Positions 948-28,886 of a DNA stretch of 64,000 nucleotides are shown here, in pieces. The number at the start of each line of letters is the position of its first letter. The stretch's first letter is position 1. The stretch covers positions 186,001-250,000 of the forward strand of contig NTMA01000049.1 in assembly GCA_002917075.1 (NCBI GenBank). The letters are read 5' to 3'. The translations under genes and the position numbers were made by a program. This DNA is from Hawksworthiomyces lignivorus (taxonomy: Eukaryota > Ascomycota > Sordariomycetes > Ophiostomatales > Ophiostomataceae). The notes beneath the pieces were generated by a model. That model searched no databases, was not told where the DNA came from, and saw only the letters and a program-made list of their open reading frames with translations.

Positions 948-1748
948 TTATGTGTTTAGTCTGTATGTCTTCTTGTCTCCCATCATACGATACCAGCCAA
1001 ATCTCCCCACATCTCGATGAATGCGTGGACACGCTGCATATTTGTTATATAATGTAGTTTCCATATTATTTAAATCTTTCCGCCACAATGTCCACATTTC
1101 ACAATGTGCTGCTTGGTGGGGATCAGCTACATAACCATCAATTATCTCACCCTGGACAGCGGCGCGTTGCAGTTTTCGCCGAGTGAAGGAGCAGTGTAGT
1201 AAAAGAAACTTAAAGGGCACAAAAACTTCGTCAAAATCGCCCACTTCGATGAGATCTACAAGCGAGACTGCAGCCCCTTCTATCAAACTCGTAGCACTGG
1301 CAGATTTGTTGCGAACTGCCAGGTAAAAATTCCACTCGCTATTGCCGTTTTTGCCATGTTTGCTTAAAAATTCTTTGGCGAGCTTGGCGTCGTAGCATCG
1401 CCAAGGCACCCAGCCAAAAATTATAGGATCAAAGACACACCCGCGAGAACGAGCCTCGTCAGGGGACTGACCACACTCGTCTTGACCCTGGTAGACGGGA
1501 AGATTATTTGTCCCGTGGTGGGAATCATGGTTATTGGCGTTAGTGATATCTGCTACTTGCGATGGTGTCTCTGTGGGCAATGAAAATAGAATGATGACAA
1601 TTGCTATCAAAGAAAAGATGGAGAGGCCAATGCCGACAGCTTTATAAGTGCTCAAAATATTCAACCAGGGAGTCGACATCTTTCGAAACCGAGTCTCCGA
1701 TATCTTCCCTGTTGCATTAGCTATAAAGGCTTCTTGTTCATCGGCCAT
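948..1748 (-). CDS. UstYa-related membrane protein of the RiPP cluster (short-motif subfamily)
   Basis: This reads as one exon of 266 residues from the ATG at 1748. A longer open frame upstream has no ATG before this codon, so MADEQEAF is the likely start. A single membrane segment lies at about residues 35-56 (GIGLSIFSLIAIVIILFSL), followed by a presumed lumenal domain. Visible motifs are DECGQSPDEARSRGCVFDP, then FGWVPWRCYDAKLAKEF, then LLHC and, about 30 residues on, DPHQAAHC. The last two recall the paired His/Cys motifs of UstYa oxidases, but the spacing and first motif differ from canonical UstYa. A protein with the same motif order is encoded at 7643, on the far side of the precursor gene. 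UstYa proteins oxidise and cyclise peptides in fungal RiPP pathways; activity here is inferred from motifs and context. The gene lies head-to-head with the canonical UstYa gene at 2307. Confidence 0.75.
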   Translation of the reverse strand: MADEQEAFIANATGKISETRFRKMSTPWLNILSTYKAVGIGLSIFSLIAIVIILFSLPTETPSQVADITNANNHDSHHGTNNLPVYQGQDECGQSPDEARSRGCVFDPIIFGWVPWRCYDAKLAKEFLSKHGKNGNSEWNFYLAVRNKSASATSLIEGAAVSLVDLIEVGDFDEVFVPFKFLLLHCSFTRRKLQRAAVQGEIIDGYVADPHQAAHCEMWTLWRKDLNNMETTLYNKYAACPRIHRDVGRFGWYRMMGDKKTYRLNT

Positions 1749-2306
1749 GTTGATGCGATTTGAAGTGAACGGGAGAATATAAGAATATGAGAGATTGACA
1801 ATGAGAGAAGGGAAATGGAAAAGCAAAAGCAGAAAAGTACAGCGGCAGATAGATTTAGTAAGAGAAGAAATTAGAAAATTCAAGACGAGAGCAGGACAGT
1901 TGGAAATGTATTTTACGATATGCAAGACAATTACGAGGACTCGTATGTCGTCCCACCACCATCATAATTCACCATAGCACACTAAATCCGTCTTATACGC
2001 AAGAAAGTTTCCTTTCGATCTCAGTTCCTGTTAAAGACGCTAATGCGCGGGGGTAACCGCTTTGGCGCGATACACCTTCTCCTTTTAGTTAGCGGGTAAG
2101 TGTTTTGCACTGTGCCATCGTATATACAAAGATAAGAACTTCTATAATGAGAAATCTGACGAAAGCTGAGACAAATTATTTTTCTGTTTCTTTTATTTTA
2201 TTAAAAAGAAAAAAATTTAAATAAATAGAAGAACAAGAGCAAAGCAGAATATAAGGAAAAGAAGCCAAAAAAGGGCTGGCAAATAGAAGAACAAAAAAAT
2301 ATCACT

Positions 2307-3411
2307 ATGAGTCTACGACAACTTTCACAAATGTTTCACTTCGGAGAAGCCAGCATTGTAGATTACAAAAGTCTTCCAACTGACTCAGAGAAGCAGCGTC
2401 TGAGTACCGATGAGGATGGTAGTGAGGCAACGCTCTCAACTAACGAGGTGGCTTCAGCAACAATGAGCAGACAACGGCTTTTACGCTGGCAAATGTCCAC
2501 AACAGTCTTATCGTCGCTCTTTGGCTTAGTCTTGTTATTGTGGATAACAAGAGAAGTTCAATTTCGGAATGCAAAATCGACGCTATATCCAGACGTACCA
2601 CAGATTGACGGTAAGATACAAGATAGACAGAGTGCGAGAGAAATTGACTTTTTAGAACTCACTGACAAACAGCAATGCATGGGGGGAAAATCGATTACAA
2701 CTTTGATGCACGCCCAGATGTCTATTCGCCAGCGGCAGCGGCCACGAAATGGAAACCAGTTGTATTCCATAATGGATTTCATGGCGACGTAACACCATGG
2801 CAAGGACCGCCATCAGATGACGTGGATCACAAGTGGAAAGAGATTTATACAGGTAAGAAGAAAACAAATGATCAAGGAAAACAAGAAAGTCCTAACAGTT
2901 CCAGGAATTGGTGTCATCAAAATTACTGGGCAAGAAGCTGCTCAACTTCCTAACCTCACACTACCAATTCCAGACGAAGATGATGGTTATATTATTGCTA
3001 TAGAAGTATACCATCAGTTGCATTGTTTGGATCTAATACGACAAGCTCTATACCCAGATCGCTATGGTGGTGACCGCTATATGACGGAAAAAGAAAAGAA
3101 GGACTATTGGATTCATTTAGGTAAGCTTTTATCTCCTTTTGCTCTACTTCTCTACTTCTTCTTCTTCAAAACTCTGACCTTTAGAACACTGTATCGATAA
3201 CCTACGCCAGACGATTGTCTGCTACTCAGACGTCAGCATTATTCCGTGGAAAATTAATGAACGGCAGCAGGCTGAATTTCCAGACGCTCATACGGTACAT
3301 ATGTGTCGAGATTTTGAAGCATTGACTGAGTGGATGCTGCATCCATCTCGACACTTTCCCCAAGAGAAGTATCAGCTACGAGTTGATGCGATGCATGCAG
3401 GTGGTCACTAG
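2307..3411 (+). CDS. UstYa-family (DUF3328) peptide oxidase of the RiPP cluster
   Basis: A four-exon model (2307-2610, 2673-2852, 2905-3120, 3185-3411) joins in frame to 308 residues, with introns GTAAGA, GTAAGA-type and GTAAGC donors. One membrane helix is at about residues 58-79 (TTVLSSLFGLVLLLWI), giving a type II topology with a lumenal catalytic region. Both diagnostic HxxHC motifs are present: HQLHC followed by LDLIRQALYP, and HLEHC followed by IDNLRQTIVC; the second is created only when the third intron is removed, which supports the splice. The C-terminal MCRDFEALTEWM is also typical of the family. UstYa proteins catalyse oxidative C-O or C-N macrocyclisation of ribosomal peptide cores in ustiloxin-type pathways; the substrate is inferred to be the repeat peptide at 6439-6726. 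It is convergent with the related gene ending at 3505. Confidence 0.9.
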
Positions 3412-3504
3412 CGGAGTTGAATATTTTAAAGAGACAATTGAAAGATAGTAATTGAAAGAAATTATTGAACAAAAAACTCTCCAAACATATCAAACGTTTA
3501 TAAC

Positions 3505-4485
3505 TTAGTTGAATACCGGCTGTACTGCTTTTGACCCTTCATACCGATCCACCATCCATTTCTGCAAGGCTTCAAAATTTCGACACGTATGCGGCACGTC
3601 CGACTCGACATAGTTGCGTCCCAGCCCTGGATAGTAACGCGTCGGAATAGGTGTCATATCGCCAGAACACATAACGTACTGGCGAATCTGCTCAATGCAG
3701 TGGTCTTGGTGGAGGGCGCTATTTCTGTTCTCATGGCCGCCATAGTGTTCAGGGTCAAGGGCTTTGCGCAATTGATTGACACAGTGAAGAGTGTGAAAAA
3801 GGTCCAGACTAGCGAAATTAGAAAAGAAAGAACAAGAAATAAAAGGATTGGATAGTTAAAAATGAAGAGGCAAGAGAACAGAGGCAGATGTGTTGCTCAC
3901 CCTGTCACATATCCTCCTCTCTGCTTGTCCCAGTACTGATCAATATTATCTCCCCACTGGGCGACGGCTTCTTCACGAGTGATCAAAAAGTAGCGACCCC
4001 ATGTCAGGTTGTCCCAATTCCAATCGATCTCTGGGTTTTCAATTGGGTTACCAACGTAGCGCACAGGCGCCGGATGAGGAATGTAAATGTGGCCATTATC
4101 GTCAAACGCTGGACCACCAGTGAAGGTGGTCTGAACAGCTTCAATGAGAGGTTTTACGGTGACTGAAGATTAGCTTTTCTCTGATTTCTTCTTGTCTTCC
4201 TTCTTTTCTCGTGTCCATACCGAAATCCGTGGCGAAGCCATGGGCAAATGTGCCCAGCTTTTGGTCAGCTGCACGATTGTCAAGCAAGATGCTGAGCATT
4301 AGTGTCGACATGGCAAAGATGCCGGCCAATGTCCAAGGAAGCGCGACGCCAGAGATACTGAAGACGTGAAGATTAACTCTAGAGAAACTGATTCCCCCGA
4401 TACTCCATCTTCTGCGTATCTGCTCATTATCGCTCTCTAGCGATGACTTTTCGCTTGTCGGCACTGCGAAGTATGTATTGGACAT
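3505..4485 (-). CDS. UstYa-family (DUF3328) peptide oxidase of the RiPP cluster
   Basis: A three-exon model (4485-4221, 4162-3901, 3808-3505) gives exactly 277 codons, 276 residues. A hydrophobic segment at about residues 47-68 (ALPWTLAGIFAMSTLMLSILL) is the membrane anchor. The middle exon carries the family's proline/tryptophan-rich stretch (YIPHPAPVRYVGNP, then WGRYFLITREEAV and QYWDKQRGGYVTG). The last exon has both HxxHC motifs, HTLHC-VNQLRKALDPEHYGG and HQDHC-IEQIRQYVMC, and ends with CRNFEALQKWM. It is a second canonical UstYa in the cluster, convergent with the gene at 2307 and only 94 bp from it. Pairs of UstYa proteins acting together are established for ustiloxin (UstYa/UstYb), so joint action on one precursor is a reasonable inference. 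Confidence 0.9.
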
Positions 4486-6438
4486 GTTTAGAAAAGACTC
4501 TCAACTTTTGACCTTGACTTAGTTTTTTGTGGTCGATTGTCTCTCCCAATTCTCTTTCTTAATTTTCTTTCTCAGTTCTCTACCTTGGTTTCTTTTCTCA
4601 ACTCTCCTCAGCTTTCCTTCTCGGTTCTCTGACAGTCGTTTCTTCACTAATACTAGCCACTTAATTCTCATGCTACAGCATGTCGTTGAGCCACTTGTAA
4701 TATCCTATTCCCAAGTCACTTCTAGACGCCGATCTGATAACGCTTCCCTTGAAGCGCTCATTGCTACCTGCACTTCTCCTTCCATGTTGGTTTTAGTACA
4801 CAGTGCGAGCCACCTTTCACGATCCATTTACCCCATGCTAAAGTAGAGCGACGAGATTGGCGACCGCATCAAACAGTCACCGAAAGTTAGACAGTCGAGT
4901 GGGGGTTGGTCGGCAATAGGCACCAAGACAGCAAAGCACAGATAGGCTAACGGCTACAGTCAGCAGGCAATCTTGAATCGGCCAAAGAGCACCGCCCCCA
5001 ACTAGTAGTCACTCTGCCATTGTGGCCAACACGGTTGCACTAGTTTAGGAATAATTAAGAGCTCGGAATTTATTCATATTTCTTGTTTGCTCTGTGGAAA
5101 TAAGGATATGTTTGGTTGTAACCCTATGGAGAGGAGCCAGTTATGTTTAGCCAAGACGACGGACAACTCACGACATACAAAGATGGGCACAGGCCTGCAC
5201 TGCCATGGTGTATTACTCTCCACTTTTCTAGACCTGTTCTCTTTCGTCCCCCATTGCTCCGTCGTTGCGATTACAACCCAGAGTTTTGTGACTACTGCGG
5301 CTCAGGTCTTTGCGGGACCCAAGGACAGAGTTCTTATGCCGACCAGTTGCACGGGTTTTGGTCCACTTCATTCCGTTTCAAGCTAAGTACGATAAGACGA
5401 CGTCTGTTTTTTCAATATATCATGTTCCTACCATGTGCCTCCCCCTCCCCCCTTTCCTCTCTCAATCCCCTTCCTCTCTCAATCGTTGATTCGGAGTATC
5501 ATATCTTATAGTTGTCTCTCTCAGCCCCCTTCTTCTTTGTGTTTAGCATTGGCGGATATCCCGGCATTTTTCTTCATCTCCTTCCTTATTAGGCATCAAT
5601 ACTCTGGTGCTATCTGAAAGTCTCTTGCGCATGCTGCAATGTAACTGTGAAACTATTAACATCGCTGGAGGCCTTGACGAGAAAGAAAGAAAATTACTAC
5701 ATTTGCATAATGTTTCCGAGCTTTGCGGTCTTTTGTTTTTCATTTTTACTTTTACTTCACCTGCAACTCATTATTCTACACTTCGTATTTCTATTTTAAT
5801 AAACTAGAAACATTGGTCAGAAATCCATCTTATCAGACACCAGTACACTTTGAAAGTATAGACAATACTACTGACCATATGTACAGCCATGGTATAACCA
5901 GCTTCCATTTTGCAATACGCGCTGTGGGCACGAATTGAATAGCCCTTGTAGCCGCCCCCCCCGAAATGCTAGACTATGACTGAATTCTACTACCGAAGCG
6001 CAGTGCAGAGCTCCCTATAGTCAAAGAGAAATTAAAATTCTATTTCGTCAACTCGCGCTCGTTGCAAAGTACTAGCTAGTCCGCTCCTTCAATTTAAAAA
6101 ATCAATGAGGAACCGAAGGCAATATAGAGGACTAGAAATTTTGTATATTCTCCCTGATATTTTACAAGATTACAAAACAATTGAGTAGCAAAGGTGATAG
6201 AAGCATACTTTATTGTGTTCTAGATTACATCAAACCGAGGTCTCTCGCATAGTTCTCGTGTAACAAAGCCTATTAGCAAAGACTGGTTGATTTTTATCTT
6301 TTGTTTTGATTTAAATATCGCCTTTTAGTTCTTGTTAGTCTAGTTGATAAGAATGGGATATAATAATTTACTTACAGCTCGGTTGCGCCGCATATCAACT
6401 GACTTGTGCGCCACGGTATTAGTTCAGTAGCGACTGTT
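4486..6438. other. Long intergenic tract inside the RiPP cluster
   Basis: No protein family was recognised in these 1.95 kb. The first part (4500-4640) and 5430-5600 are pyrimidine-rich. The former is the upstream region of the UstYa gene starting at 4485; the end near 6438 is the 3' side of the precursor gene. Open frames of 60-120 codons here have no conserved content. Confidence 0.5.
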
Positions 6439-6726
6439 TCATTTAGACACATCGGCCCAGCCAACGACTCCCTCAGTCGAGGCGTCCTCACGCTTAGAGA
6501 CATCAGCCCAACCGACAACTCCTTCCGTCGAAGCGTCCTCACGCTTGGAGACATCAGCCCAGCCAACGACTCCCTCCGTCGAAGCGTCCTTACGCTTGGA
6601 AACGTCAGCCCAGCCAACGACTCCTTCCGTTGAAGCGTCTTCACGGGCCTTAAGACTCTTGAAGGAAGTGGGAGCGGCCACGGCCGTGCCGTAAAAGATA
6701 GAAAGAAGAATAGTGGCGTACTTCAT
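6439..6726 (-). CDS. RiPP precursor peptide with four Kex2-flanked repeats
   Basis: A 95-residue protein, one exon. It starts with a signal peptide (MKYATILLSIFYGTAVAA, likely cut after Ala-18) and a short spacer ending in LKA. Residues 28-95 are four copies of the 17-residue unit REDASTEGVVGWADVSK; the second copy has K instead of E at position 2. Units join through Lys-Arg, the site of Kex2/KexB proteases, so secretory processing would free four near-identical peptides. The stop follows the last VSK. This is the architecture of UstA, PhomA and epichloecyclin-type precursors, and four UstYa or UstYa-like genes flank it. Unlike those cores, the unit has no Tyr or Phe; its one aromatic residue is Trp. 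The exact core is not known; VVGWADV is a guess. The function of the product cannot be told from the sequence. Confidence 0.9.
   Translation of the reverse strand: MKYATILLSIFYGTAVAAPTSFKSLKAREDASTEGVVGWADVSKRKDASTEGVVGWADVSKREDASTEGVVGWADVSKREDASTEGVVGWADVSK
6442..6645 (-). repeat. Four tandem 51-bp repeats coding the core peptide
   Basis: The four units differ from each other at 13 aligned positions that I counted. Twelve are third codon positions and silent; one is a first position changing Glu to Lys beside the cleavage site. The peptide core itself is invariant. Confidence 0.92.
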
Positions 6727-7642
6727 ATTGACAACGAGTGGTATTATAAATGTAAATTGTTTTTAAGAGTGAATAGCAGAGTAACTGAAGAAATAGATCT
6801 CGGAGTAATAAGAAAGTTAGATATATTTGCAAACAGAACCTTTATATCACTAAAATCAAGATGAGATATAGAGCTAATACGAAAGAAGGTGAAATAGTTC
6901 ATAATCATCCGAGGTCAACTTGAAATAAAAGGCCGTGCTACTTTGCTCCTTAGCTATTAGAGAGTACATCGAAGATTTAATTGCATAATCATGTAGAGAA
7001 AAATGATCAGTAGAAAACATGGAACATCGTTGCGTGAATTTTCAACTTTTGACTCCCTTCTCTGTAGTATCTCGATGAGTCTAGTTACGAGAAACCAAAA
7101 GAAGAAAGTCCTTGTATCTGCTTTTCTACCACCTTCCTCATTCTATTGGATTTTCTTCATTTGGTAGCCCGTATAACGTCGTGATTTTCTGCTCGGTCGT
7201 CGTTCATGGACTTGACAACGGTGAAAAGGAATTCAAAGTGTAATCATGAAGACCGGCACGGTCCATACCACATAGTGCCCGCACAGTATTAAGAGACCTA
7301 GTCAAAAATAACCTCATTTGCCCCATAGTTTTTTATGTCGATCTCCGATACAGTATGGAAAGTTAGCGTAAGCACGGCCCCTTTTTATCTATTATGGCGG
7401 TAGAATTGCCATGAAAGAAGGACAAGATATGGTATTTTTGGTAAGAGAACCTTCAAAAAGCTGTTCGGCTCAAAAGCATGCGAATAGTCCTTGATCACTG
7501 ATTGTCTCCTACTTGTACCAGTATTCCTACTCTTCAGCCTTTCGTTCTTTGATTTTATATTGTCTGATCTATGGATCTTGGCTGCCTCTTTTTCTCTCTG
7601 ATTTCAATTGTCCTTTGAACTTTTAGAATTCTCTCATCTCTC
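6727..7642. promoter_or_regulatory. Divergent promoter region of precursor and UstYa-like gene
   Basis: This 916-bp gap separates two genes transcribed away from each other, the precursor on minus and the UstYa-like gene on plus, so it must hold both promoters. Pyrimidine-rich DNA (7540-7640) precedes the plus-strand ATG. No specific operator could be assigned, and no cluster regulator is recognisable within the RiPP block. Confidence 0.45.
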
Positions 7643-8455
7643 ATGGCTGAAAAGGCAACGTATTCACCCGTTGAGGCCTTCAACGACGGTGGGCGCACCG
7701 GCAGTTATGAGAGCGAATCTACACTGATGCGAGACAGCGATGGCGGCCAGAGCTACTGGTCTAACAACCGGCTCGGCCGCGCTTCGTCCTCTCGTCGACG
7801 GTGCGGCAGTATCATCTTTCGGGCCGTAAAGCTTTTGCTTGCAGTCATCCTGGTAGCTTCTTGTATCGGTAGCTTAGCTTTGATCGCTCGTTCGCTACGA
7901 GGCATCTCAGCTAGCCTAGAAAAGACGGTCAGCGAGCCCATTAGCTATGGTGACTGCGGCTCCTCAAAGACTGTCGAGGAGGCCCGAGCTAAGGGATGCG
8001 TATTTGACCCTATGGGCTGGATATGGACACGTCTCGAGTGCTACGACGCCGACCTAGTAGCCGACTTTATGAACAGAACCGACTGGTCATGGCATATGGA
8101 GCCCAAATTGAAGGCCGAGAGTCGAGTCCCCCTTGACGAGATTTTTCGAGGCGATCATCCAACACTATTTACTTCTAAGAAATATCACTATGTCCACTGT
8201 GCTGTGAGTGCTCGACTCTTGACTTTCGAGAAGAATAGCTGAAATATTAACCACTTGCAGTATATGTGGAAAAAAATGCACAAGGCTCTTGTCAATCACA
8301 GCCCCATTGACAGTTACCTAACAGATTTTACACATACCAATCACTGCTCCATGGTGCTTCTTAACGATTTTTTGCACGAAGACGTACAGTGCACGCCGGA
8401 GATGGTCTGTCCGACATGGGTTCGTGCTACTTGGACGTCTTGTTCAGCGATATAA
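7643..8455 (+). CDS. UstYa-related membrane protein of the RiPP cluster (short-motif subfamily)
   Basis: Two exons (7643-8203 and 8261-8455, donor GTGAGT, acceptor TTGCAG) give 251 residues. A membrane helix spans about residues 64-87 (AVKLLLAVILVASCIGSLALIA). The lumenal part has CGSSKTVEEARAKGCVFDP, then WIWTRLECYDADLVADF, then YHYVHC-AYMWKKMHKAL, and SYLTDFTHTNHC. The HC and HxxHC elements come together only after splicing, which supports the intron. It shares motif order and about the same length with the protein ending at 948, so the cluster holds two pairs: two canonical UstYa and two of this shorter type. The role is inferred as oxidative tailoring of the precursor; the family is poorly characterised. 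Confidence 0.78.
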
Positions 8456-15116: not shown

Positions 15117-17328
15117 ATGAGCAGGCCCGCGAATGCTATCACCGACTTTGAGGCAGCCCCCGTTTCACCCGAGGGGCTGCCGACCGCCGAACTACAGAAT
15201 CATGAAGTCGCTACTGGATTGGACATCAGCGGTGATCACCTAGTCGATGACGGTGAGGAACCCACTGAAGAGGAGCTCGCGACACTGCGCCGCGTTCCGG
15301 CACCAATGCCGTAGGCAATCCCCCTTCCAAAATGAGTTTTCTTTTACCTTTATCTTCGCGTTCGGTCTTAATTTGCTCTTGTCTCGTGAATGATAGATGA
15401 TAGAGCTAACGTGTGACGGTGAAAAGCTGGGTCGCAATCCTCATGTGCTTCATTGAGTTCGCGGAGCGGGCCTCCTACTATGGTTCGTCGGGTCCGTTCA
15501 ACAACTTCATCAATAACCCGCTACCAAAAGGCGGGAGTGGGACTGGGGCAGTTGCGAAGGGAGATGCAGGGAAAAATGAATCTGCTGGGGCGCTTGGGCT
15601 AGGCTCAGTCGATGCCTCAGCGCTCACAAACATGTTCTCGTTCTTGGCATATGTGATTCCAATCTATGGCGGTAAGCTACCTGTTCTGTCCCTTGTGCTC
15701 AAGAAACAAGAGACAAAGTCCTGTTGTCCTAATTCGAGACTAATTTGTTGACTATACAGGCATTGTCGCAGATACGCGCTGGGGTAGGTTCAAGACCATC
15801 TGTGTCGGTACGGCGGTGGGTGCTATCGCGCACGTCTTGCTGGTGATCCCCGCAATTCCGTCTGTCATCGCGCATCCGAACGGCTCCTTGGCCGCATTCA
15901 TTATATCGATCATCATTCTGGCATTTGCGGCTGGCTTCATCAAGCCATCGTTGGGTCCGTTGCTCTGCGACCAGAGCCCCGTAAAGAACCCAACGGTGAA
16001 AGTTCTCAAGAGCGGAGAGCGCGTAATCGTGGATCCGGGCGTCACTATCGAGCGTTGGTTGCTTATATTTTACGGCTGCATCAACATTGGCGCTTTCTTT
16101 GCCCTCGCCACAGAATACGCCGAGCGCTTTGTCGGCTTCTGGCTTGCGTATCTGTTGCCTGGTATCATCTACATGCTCATGCCAATTGTGCTCGTGATAG
16201 GGTACAAGCGGCTGTACAAGGCACCACCACAGGGTTCCGTTGTTATGGAGACCATGAATGTTTTGAAGGTGCTGTTGGCCAACGGTGGCTGGAAGCGCAT
16301 GTGGAAAGGCGGCGACAATTTCTGGGAGAAAGCCAAGCCGTCCTACATTGAGGCCCGCGATGGCAAGGTGGATCTCGAAAAAGTTAACTGGGATGATAAA
16401 TTTGTCGATGAGATTAAGCAGTCGTTGCAGGCTTGTGAAGTATTTTTTCTCATTTTCATCTACGGTTTGGCAGACGGTGGCATCGGTAACCAGCTGAACG
16501 ATATGTCGGTAAGTTTCGTCGTGTATATGGTGTCTCACAATCGAAGAGGGTGCTGATCAATCACAGGTCGCCATGACACTCGACGGCGCACCAAACGACC
16601 TTATCACGAACTTCAACCCACTCGCCATCATCGTTTTCACGCCAATTCTCACATATGGCCTCTATCCTTTTATGACACGCATTGGCTATCCGCTGAAGCC
16701 AATGGTACGCATGTCGATAGGGTACCTCTTAGCATGTATAGGGTGCATCATTGCGGCTATCGTGCAGTGGCGGATCTACAAGACTTCACCATGCGGTTGG
16801 CAGGCGACAACGTGCGATACAGTCTCACCGGTATCACTTTGGTTGCAAATTCCTATTTATACGTTCCCGGCCATAGGTGAGCTGTTTGTGAACGTGACCT
16901 CGTACGAGCTGGCATACACGCGGTCGCCAGCCCGCATGAAGGGCCTTGTGTACGCGCTCGCATTGTTCAACTCCGCCATCACGTACGCCATATCGTTGGC
17001 ACTGGCAGACGTTATCCAAGAGTAAGATCTGTCTTTATTGTTCCTCTTTTTCTAAAGGATTTCCGTTCTTCAGAGGCCGAATGCTAATGTCAAGCACAGC
17101 CCGTATCTTGTCTGGCCGTGGGTCGCTCTAGCCGTTGCGACATTTATCTGCGCGTTCATCTTTCCGACTTATTTCCGGCATCTCAACGTTCCCTTGGCGG
17201 CATTTGCAGACCGCGATCGTCAGGCCGGATTGCAGCAGCCTAAAGTGCTTCTTGCCAAGGCACAGCAGGAGGCAGCAGTTGCTGAAGCGGTGGCGGAGAG
17301 CAGCAATGAGAAGCAAGAGAAAAACTAA
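15117..17328 (+). CDS. PTR2-type proton-coupled di/tripeptide transporter
   Basis: Five exons (15117-15310, 15427-15671, 15760-16508, 16567-17021, 17100-17328) sum to exactly 624 codons, 623 residues, a normal length for fungal PTR2/POT carriers. The N-terminus is hydrophilic and acidic. The first helix holds the POT signature FIEFAERASYYGSSGP, followed by a loop and PIYGGIVADTRWGRF. The centre has AAGFIKPSLGPLLCDQ, and FYGCINIGAFFAL matches the second POT motif. About twelve membrane segments follow, with the charged tail typical of the fungal family. The first intron ends at AAAAG after a GCTAAC branch site, joining PMP to WVAILM. It imports small peptides at the plasma membrane. Its placement beside a RiPP cluster is suggestive, but POT carriers are common and 6.6 kb of non-coding DNA separates them. 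Confidence 0.92.
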
Positions 17329-23014: not shown

Positions 23015-23056
23015 AAAAGAAAAGAAAAGAAAAGAAAAGAAAAGAAAAGGAAAGGA

Positions 23057-23100
<44 letters not shown>

Positions 23101-23101
23101 G

Positions 23102-23148
<47 letters not shown>

Positions 23149-23158
23149 AAAAAAGAAA
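23015..23158. repeat. Purine microsatellite, (AAAAG)n then (GAAA)n
   Basis: An AAAAG pentamer run passes into a GAAA tetramer run with few interruptions. It generates meaningless Lys/Glu-Arg and Phe/Leu-Ser frames on the two strands. It lies about 200 bp upstream of the GMC oxidoreductase start. Confidence 0.95.
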
Positions 23159-27661: not shown

Positions 27662-28886
27662 ATGCAAGCCAGAGATGGTACGTCACACACCTTTCAGCTA
27701 GCTTTGCATCAGTATAGTTATCCTAATATCAGAACTCCAATAGCCTTCACAATCTACGCCGAGGTCTTTTCATCCATCTTGGAGTGAAAATGCAATTATA
27801 GTATGCAGACAATGCTTTTCAGCTTAAAAAAAAATATTTTGACTAATATTTCATAGCTTCAAGTACCAGTCATCTACAGCAAAAGCAATACGACTGACCG
27901 GGAAGAGCTTCTAGCGTATGCTTCTGAATTACATCTCACATTTCGAATGACAGCTACACTATGGAAGACTTCGCACGGCGCAGATATAATAGAAACCTCT
28001 GCCAAAGAGGTACAAACAGTTCATTCTGCTTTTCCCGACGTGACAGATGGCAAGATGCTCGTTTCTCTAGCTGCTTGGTTTTTCGTTCTCTGCACTGTTG
28101 ACGATATAGTCGAGCAGCTGGATACAGCGATCAGCGTGGCCACTCTAGGTGACTGCGTCGAGATGCTACGTAAACAGGACAAAAATTCCTTGCCTTCAAA
28201 AATATGTATGTGTTCGAGAGAAGCTAACAGGCTAATGTTGTTTTCATATCTAACAATATCTACAAGATCTTGAATCCAAATCCAGCTTACCTGGCGAAAG
28301 AATTAAGAGAATAATAAGGTCATTTATACATCATATAAGATCTCAACATAACGCTGACGGAACAACCAAAATTCTTGCTTCAGTAGCTGAAGCACTCAGA
28401 GGGCAAATAGATGAAGTAATTTGTCGAGCCGACCAACCTTTCAGTGTTGAAAGATACTTGTTAGTCCGTGAGCTATCAGTGGGCATCATGCCATTTTTTG
28501 ACATCCTCAAAAGTTCCACAAATAGGTGGGAGCATGCATCATCGCTGGTCCAAAATCTTGAGCAGAAGATCATCTTAACGATCATATATCAGAACGATCT
28601 TATAGGACTTGAAAGAGACGTGACGAATAACGAAACAATGAATGCTCTACTAATCTGGAATCGCACCTCTCATACTTTGCTAGAACCAACAGAAGATGAT
28701 AGATTTGATTTATCCGCTAAAGAAGTTGCAAAGCGCCATAACCTGCTTGTCGACGAAAGCTTGGCGATTTACAATGACATACAAGACTTTCAGGACCCAA
28801 AACTAATGGATTTCTGTGATACTGTTTTATTATTTTGCCATAGACACCTGCTTTGGGCTTTGAGTGCGAAACGATACCAAGCTTGA
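27662..28886 (+). CDS. Class I terpene synthase-like protein
   Basis: Two well-supported exons (27857-28205 and 28267-28886, intron GTATGT to CAAG) are preceded by a possible first exon from ATG 27662 whose splice I could not fix. The aspartate motif WFFVLCTVDDIVEQLD matches the DDxx(D/E) metal site of class I terpene cyclases. FSVERYLLVRELSVGIMPFF fits the helix before the second site. NDLIGLERDV fills the NSE/DTE place, but with Gly for Ser/Thr and Asp for Glu. The end, MDFCDTVLLFCHRHLLWALS, resembles the C-terminus of trichodiene-synthase-type enzymes. The reaction would be ionisation and cyclisation of a prenyl diphosphate in the cytosol. Product unknown; the altered NSE triad leaves activity open. 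Confidence 0.7.

Follow-up and report, generated by a model that had tools for sequence, protein, structure and literature searches.

Locus layout and the repeat precursor

The window analysed here is a stretch of 64,000 nucleotides from the fungus Hawksworthiomyces lignivorus, bases 186001-250000 of a contig called C136 below, in a genome of 43.7 Mb and 191 contigs. Its gene content, with fungal transcription-factor domains and UstYa proteins, is consistent with a fungal origin. Five genes lie together at window positions 948-8455, in the order g1 (-), g2 (+), g3 (-), a repeat precursor (-) and g4 (+). The initial annotation had proposed that a secreted precursor with four repeats, two canonical UstYa (DUF3328) genes and two UstYa-related genes form an undescribed cluster for a dikaritin-type ribosomally synthesised and post-translationally modified peptide (RiPP) with a Trp core. 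The gene set was found as proposed: Tandem Repeats Finder (TRF) gives a 51-bp unit at 6443-6645 in 4.0 copies with 86% match, and both g2 and g3 match PF11807. The layout is not quite the proposed one, in which the precursor separated the UstYa pair from the related pair; it lies between g3 and g4, and the related gene g1 precedes g2. The distance to the precursor is about 3 kb for g2 and about 2 kb for g3, and this is the UstYa/DUF3328 adjacency of dikaritin-type clusters.

The precursor has a hydrophobic start that ends in AVAA with P next, and its hydropathy peak is at residues 6-17. On reading and hydropathy it is a putative signal peptide. After a short spacer there are four units of 17 residues, three of them reading REDASTEGVVGWADVSK and one RKDASTEGVVGWADVSK, so that the repeat sequence first given is right for the three units beginning with RED and has to be amended for the one beginning with RKD. 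Lys-Arg, said to flank the repeats, is found at residues 44, 61 and 78, which are the three junctions between the four units as in Kex2-type repeat proteins; unit 1 is preceded by K-A-R and unit 4 ends with K and the stop codon. A single Trp is present in each unit, and Tyr, Phe and His are absent. Trp is thus the sole aromatic residue of the unit, as had been claimed, in place of the Tyr or Phe core of characterised dikaritins.

Is the repeat peptide under selection? In the stretch of 15 codons from Asp to Lys, the four copies are identical at the protein level, while 4-9 of the 45 bases differ in each pair of copies. A minimum of 13 codon changes separates the copies, and every one of them (13/13 or more) is synonymous. 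If one quarter of random changes were synonymous, the probability would be about 1.6e-8, under a simple model that disregards transition bias and conversion between copies. Because all codon changes are synonymous, the peptide sequence of the repeat is maintained by selection.

The repeat is encoded only at this locus in the genome, the other row of the search being the opposite strand of the same place (E 0.585). In a collection of 5.8 billion proteins, fungal proteins included, the precursor had no homolog at E<=1 (3244 candidates), nor at E<=10 with a length-extended query among 7998 scored candidates. No Trp-linked UstYa product and no compound derived from this repeat were found in searches of the open-licence literature, many subscription papers lying outside it. 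As far as searched, the cluster is therefore undescribed. A match of the precursor to Enolase_like_N (20.1 bits against a cut-off of 25) was put down to chance.

Table 1. Features of the cluster, in window positions. Unit coordinates were obtained by arithmetic.
Feature	Position	Strand	Remarks
g1, UstYa-related, 266 aa, single exon, one hydrophobic helix	948..1748	-	LLLHC and QAAHC at the HxxHC places of relatives
g2, canonical UstYa/DUF3328, 308 aa	2307..3411	+	PF11807 E=1.3e-49; HQLHC and HLEHC
g2 exons (four)	2307-2610, 2673-2852, 2905-3120, 3185-3411	+	
g3, canonical UstYa/DUF3328, 276 aa	3505..4485	-	PF11807 E=8.3e-34; HTLHC and HQDHC
g3 exons (three)	4485-4221, 4162-3901, 3808-3505	-	
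Kex2-type repeat precursor, 95 aa, single exon	6439..6726	-	four units (R)(E/K)DASTEGVVGWADVSK
Putative signal peptide MKYATILLSIFYGTAVAA	6673..6726	-	sequence reading and hydropathy
Unit 1, REDASTEGVVGWADVSK	6595..6645	-	
Unit 2, RKDASTEGVVGWADVSK	6544..6594	-	
Unit 3, REDASTEGVVGWADVSK	6493..6543	-	
Unit 4, REDASTEGVVGWADVSK	6442..6492	-	followed by stop
g4, UstYa-related, 251 aa	7643..8455	+	exons 7643-8203, 8261-8455; HYVHC and HTNHC intact

UstYa proteins and a related family

The introns were set manually at GT..AG sites that join the reading frames, and the gene models rest on the DNA sequence. The proteins g2 and g3 cover most of PF11807, and in each of them HxxHC occurs twice and a hydrophobic stretch once. 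For g1 and g4 no Pfam family is above the cut-off, and PF11807 is above the cut-off in none of the eight members of their family in this genome (g1, g4 and six others). A profile of these eight proteins retrieved 110 database proteins; those with a named organism are all fungal, and PF11807 is precomputed on only two of the 110. An alignment of all 118 sequences was then used to count the motif residues, with gaps counted among the non-matching. The first His, second His and Cys are kept by 114, 111 and 114 sequences in the first motif and by 106, 102 and 106 in the second, and an N-terminal Cys/Gly/Trp pattern is near-invariant. HxxHC occurs at least twice in 97 of the 118 and at least once in 113, some of the remainder being truncated models.

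The two members in the cluster differ in their motifs. In g4 both motifs are intact and a hydrophobic stretch is found at residues 64-82, which gives the HxxHC(x)nHxxHC pattern with a membrane helix. It falls in a clade of 27 sequences with support 0.998, and 26 of the 110 relatives are at least 45% identical to it across the aligned part. The named ones, at 50-64%, include proteins of Cladophialophora, Copromyces, Rhypophila, Pyrenula, Penicillium vulpinum, Podospora, Echria, Xylaria and Diaporthe; relatives of g4 are found, for instance, in Cladophialophora carrionii (G647_02748), Penicillium vulpinum (N7479_005962), Rhypophila decipiens and Podospora didyma. In g1, L and Q replace the first His of the two motifs, no HxxHC is found anywhere in the protein, and it has no well-supported close relative (support of its grouping only 0.44). 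The Xylaria g4-type proteins P0090 and P0106 have degenerate motifs too. Loss of the first His may have happened more than once. It was also observed that the g4 intron (window 8203-8261) falls one residue past the first HC, and that the database relatives P0080, P0093, P0103 and P0104 diverge or stop immediately past that point. This suggests that the intron is conserved and that these four models are mis-annotated.

Is the related family akin to UstYa? A trimmed family profile, keeping 115 of the 118 rows after three gap-rich ones were dropped, was compared with a profile of five canonical UstYa sequences or pieces. The alignment spans 101 columns, brings both motifs into register and scores 42.4 (probability 84.7), while 20 column shuffles gave at most 16.5 and the reversed profile 12.9. 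This profile comparison supports a remote kinship between the g1 and g4 type and UstYa. One of the 110 relatives, a 469-residue Aspergillus niger model flagged PF11807, reads as a UstYa-like part followed by a member of the related family. In the predicted structure of P0024, a close relative of g4, the start is of low confidence, a long membrane helix comes next, and HxxHC is carried by each of two more helices (mean predicted local distance difference test score 76.9); the g1 model resembles it in the order of its elements and is less confident (63.8). Sequence searches of PDB with g3 and with A1 returned nothing at E<=1, and Foldseek, run on PDB with the P0024 model, returned four matches, none significant (best E 2.8). 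The linked and conserved oxidase-like family that the Pfam model leaves out, with g1 as a member whose copper site is degenerate, is more surprising than the Trp core.

The state of g1 raises a further question, whether the cluster is decaying, with the precursor kept and the pathway inactive. The first His is missing from both g1 motifs, and in the DUF3328 enzyme CctR, whose four His bind two coppers, replacements of conserved His or Cys abolish activity (PMC12435403, as far as its available text goes). However, the g1 frame is open at 266 codons and retains family positions including C92, G93, C104 and C118; g2, g3 and g4 are open after splicing with intact motifs, and the repeat is under strong purifying selection. 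We consider decay very improbable.

Recurrence of the gene combination in the genome

PF11807 matches are found on 14 contigs of the genome, and genes of the related family at five loci. Four of the five (C136, C151, C142 and C1) also have UstYa genes. The chance of such co-location is about 8e-9, in a model that takes 10 kb either side of 14 places. Repeat precursors are found at all four co-located loci, two of Trp type (C136 and C1) and two of Tyr type (C151 and, tentatively, C142). At C1, beside a UstYa gene and a UstYa-related gene, the precursor (C1:840319-841211, minus strand; stretch L023 2319-3211) has ten GQDDEAWTFHISTDEAGKTPSKR-type units with Trp and without Tyr, and apparently one intron near the signal peptide. 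The Tyr-rich precursor at C151 (C151:31749-32399, minus strand; stretch L021 5749-6399) has nine DVGYQYTTVKTEPDEKR-type units (YQYTTV), with tyrosinase exons 1.5 kb from it, two UstYa-type places and three UstYa-related genes. The weakest of the four cases is C142 (minus strand, stretch L020 about 1500-2022). Here a secreted-looking protein amid UstYa genes gives a 35-residue unit twice, containing LIDAISDLDYYKRD (DYYKR), and the copies are apparently split by an intron that was spliced by eye. At the fifth locus, C159, the related gene has no UstYa match and no repeat precursor was found in the 10 kb read.

A single-frame scan for repeat precursors covered 16 stretches besides the cluster's own: the surroundings of UstYa or related genes, DNA upstream of the window, and the remainder of the window, which is its sole random-region control. 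Precursors with intron-interrupted repeats escape such a scan. Ten UstYa loci that lack a related gene were read over 8 kb each, and no row there was judged to be a precursor, all being at floor level, of low complexity or the C166 repeat. The latter (stretch L036 367-1866) consists of near-identical WD40-like repeats of 41-42 residues near a UstYa match; it was rejected as a precursor because another frame reads the WD40-like repeats. At C130:69601-71996 a UstYa match lies beside a tyrosinase match, and no single-frame repeat precursor was found in the 8 kb read (L033). The C142 contig has no tyrosinase match. A pairing of Tyr cores with tyrosinase and of Trp cores without it was set aside, the counts being one of two against none of two loci.

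Might the precursor simply release an unmodified secreted peptide, like a pheromone or a signal, while the neighbouring oxidases act on another substrate? There is a weak likeness between the precursor's N-terminal part and MF_alpha_N (E=0.048, 14 bits, under the 22-bit cut-off). The usual ascomycete pheromone repeat motif has Cys and Pro, however, and the unit has neither. No match to a pheromone-like DNA pattern turned up in the genome, and this is uninformative as the pattern was strict. Kex2 repeat proteins have been described as sources of unmodified peptides (PMC7099791, in its available text), and among 7878 of them surveyed in 2020, 22% had DUF3328 within 15 genes, with 1758 DUF3328-linked precursors counted, while 78% had none nearby (PMC7329392). 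On the other hand, the available text of that survey reports that not one annotated yeast alpha-factor lies near DUF3328, and that just three putative fungal pheromones do. At the C136 locus oxidase genes flank the precursor on both sides, and the combination recurs in the genome. An unmodified peptide is thus unlikely.

Outside the cluster, two genes upstream of the window could serve transport and trimming, respectively: one of the major facilitator superfamily (MFS) at C136:183477-185041 and one for an M3 peptidase, starting at C136:180768. No tie of either to the cluster was found. A POT-family (PTR2) peptide transporter gene is at window 15744-17025, about 7 kb past g4. There is a terpene synthase C-terminal domain (PF19086) at 28254-28886, a separate possible biosynthetic gene. 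An AAAG microsatellite of about 34 copies at 23016-23158 was listed by the repeat scan among low-complexity tracts.

Proposed pathway and comparison with known systems

The C136 locus is probably a dikaritin-type RiPP cluster, whose UstYa-type enzymes would use copper to oxidise the peptides that Kex2 releases. This class membership, proposed at the outset, is supported by the anatomy of the cluster and by three further loci with this gene combination, among which the precursor of one is tentative. The precursor would enter the secretory pathway, and a Kex2-type cut after Lys-Arg would give (E/K)DASTEGVVGWADVS peptides once the basic tail is trimmed off. The enzymes g2, g3 and g4 would act on them in the Golgi or endosome lumen as membrane-anchored binuclear-copper oxidases with O2 as oxidant. 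Oxidation would most likely take place at or next to Trp because it is the only aromatic residue, and the product would be a cross-linked or otherwise oxidised peptide. As two of the four motif His are lost in g1, it is more likely a non-catalytic partner (in a dimer, or in binding copper or substrate) than an oxidase. The computed [M+H]+ is 1521.670 for linear EDASTEGVVGWADVS and 1519.655 at -2H, 1520.723 and 1518.707 for KDASTEGVVGWADVS, and 889.441 and 887.426 for GVVGWADVS.

What would the oxidation be? We tentatively suggest that UstYa-type copper enzymes cross-link the Trp side chain, aided by the g4-type DUF3328 branch and the degenerate g1, with a second Trp pathway at C1. The new Trp-linked macrocycle first proposed is in this sense possible. 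Another branch of the same dikaritin-type scenario, which we likewise hold to be a doubtful but real possibility, leaves Trp untouched and has hydroxylation, desaturation or other C-H oxidation at Val, Asp, Ala or Ser. DUF3328 enzymes are implicated in hydroxylation and halogenation as well as macrocyclisation, CctR being a hydroxylase (PMC12435403). Three UstYa homologs of the phomopsin pathway are needed for desaturation besides cyclisation (PMC10512285, in its available part). Moreover, the presence of four oxidase-type genes where there is a single aromatic residue hints at more than one step. Against this branch, known dikaritins are, in the reports available, linked via Tyr in ustiloxin, phomopsin and asperipin or via Phe in victorin (PMC7329392, PMC9233826), and Trp is the sole aromatic residue here.

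Several points weigh against a dikaritin-type pathway acting on Trp. Unit 1 has no Lys-Arg ahead of it, and conservation of Trp across species cannot be shown because no relative of the precursor was found. For the kinship of the related family, hhalign of the eight related sequences against g2 and g3 gave a weak probability of 7.8. An untrimmed deeper profile gave 99.6 and was discarded as an artefact, because the reversed profile (99.2) and eight shuffles (99.1-99.2) scored alike. Trp repeats beside DUF3328 were already counted in the 2020 survey, which gives W in 20.5% of DUF3328-linked repeats and in 24.5% of those without DUF3328 neighbours (PMC7329392). Since the two proportions are about equal, the association statistics do not single out Trp as substrate. 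In the same survey Tyr is found in 65.6% of linked repeats and 38.2% of the others, so about one third of linked repeats are without Tyr. A conserved Tyr was deemed essential for cyclisation of ustiloxin and phomopsin in the available text of a 2019 survey (PMC6339444).

If the dikaritin-type pathway holds, the cluster offers a compact Trp-only system with intact g2-g4 for a direct test of copper-dependent UstYa action on Trp. Few dikaritins have been characterised, five being named in a 2022 review (PMC10512285), compared with the 1758 DUF3328-linked precursors of the survey (PMC7329392). Given a conserved UstYa-like family outside the Pfam model, searches with PF11807 only would miss part of such clusters.

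How does the cluster compare with known systems? By definition dikaritins derive from Kex2 repeat proteins, with UstYa homologs carrying out the cyclisation (PMC10512285). Ustiloxin, phomopsin, asperipin-2a and victorin, and the sister class of epichloecyclins, have a signal peptide, which is putative at C136, and share with it Kex2-type repeats and adjacent UstYa/DUF3328 genes (PMC7329392, PMC10512285), whereas the C136 cluster has a Trp-only unit and two UstYa-related genes without a Pfam match. Ustiloxin and phomopsin require a tyrosinase (PMC7329392), while in a six-frame, exon-wise search contig C136 has a sole PF00264 match (146861-147586), which g1 is about 40 kb away from, and thus no tyrosinase gene was found near the cluster. 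CctR, the binuclear-copper hydroxylase of cyclochlorotine, has a membrane helix and HxxHC helices as in the model of the g4 relative (PMC12435403); its substrate is a non-ribosomal cyclic peptide, and the eight g1/g4 family members of this genome go unmatched by PF11807. Trp repeats near DUF3328 are also found in the Kex2 repeat protein (KEP) type P-3 (#165), in four of seven cases, and in other W-containing repeat proteins; in P-3 the W is accompanied by P, the C136 unit has no Pro, and the available text of the survey names no P-3 product (PMC7329392). Trp as the likeliest target finds an analogy in plant BURP cyclases of lyciumin type, which have a four-His copper site, act on a ribosomal peptide and cross-link Trp indole (PMC12186524), although they belong to another protein family and another kingdom and the likeness is one of analogy only. 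Within the same genome, the C1 locus shares with C136 a unit with Trp and no Tyr beside UstYa and UstYa-related genes, and differs from it in that its more numerous units, in a gene with an apparent intron, have Trp, Phe and His.

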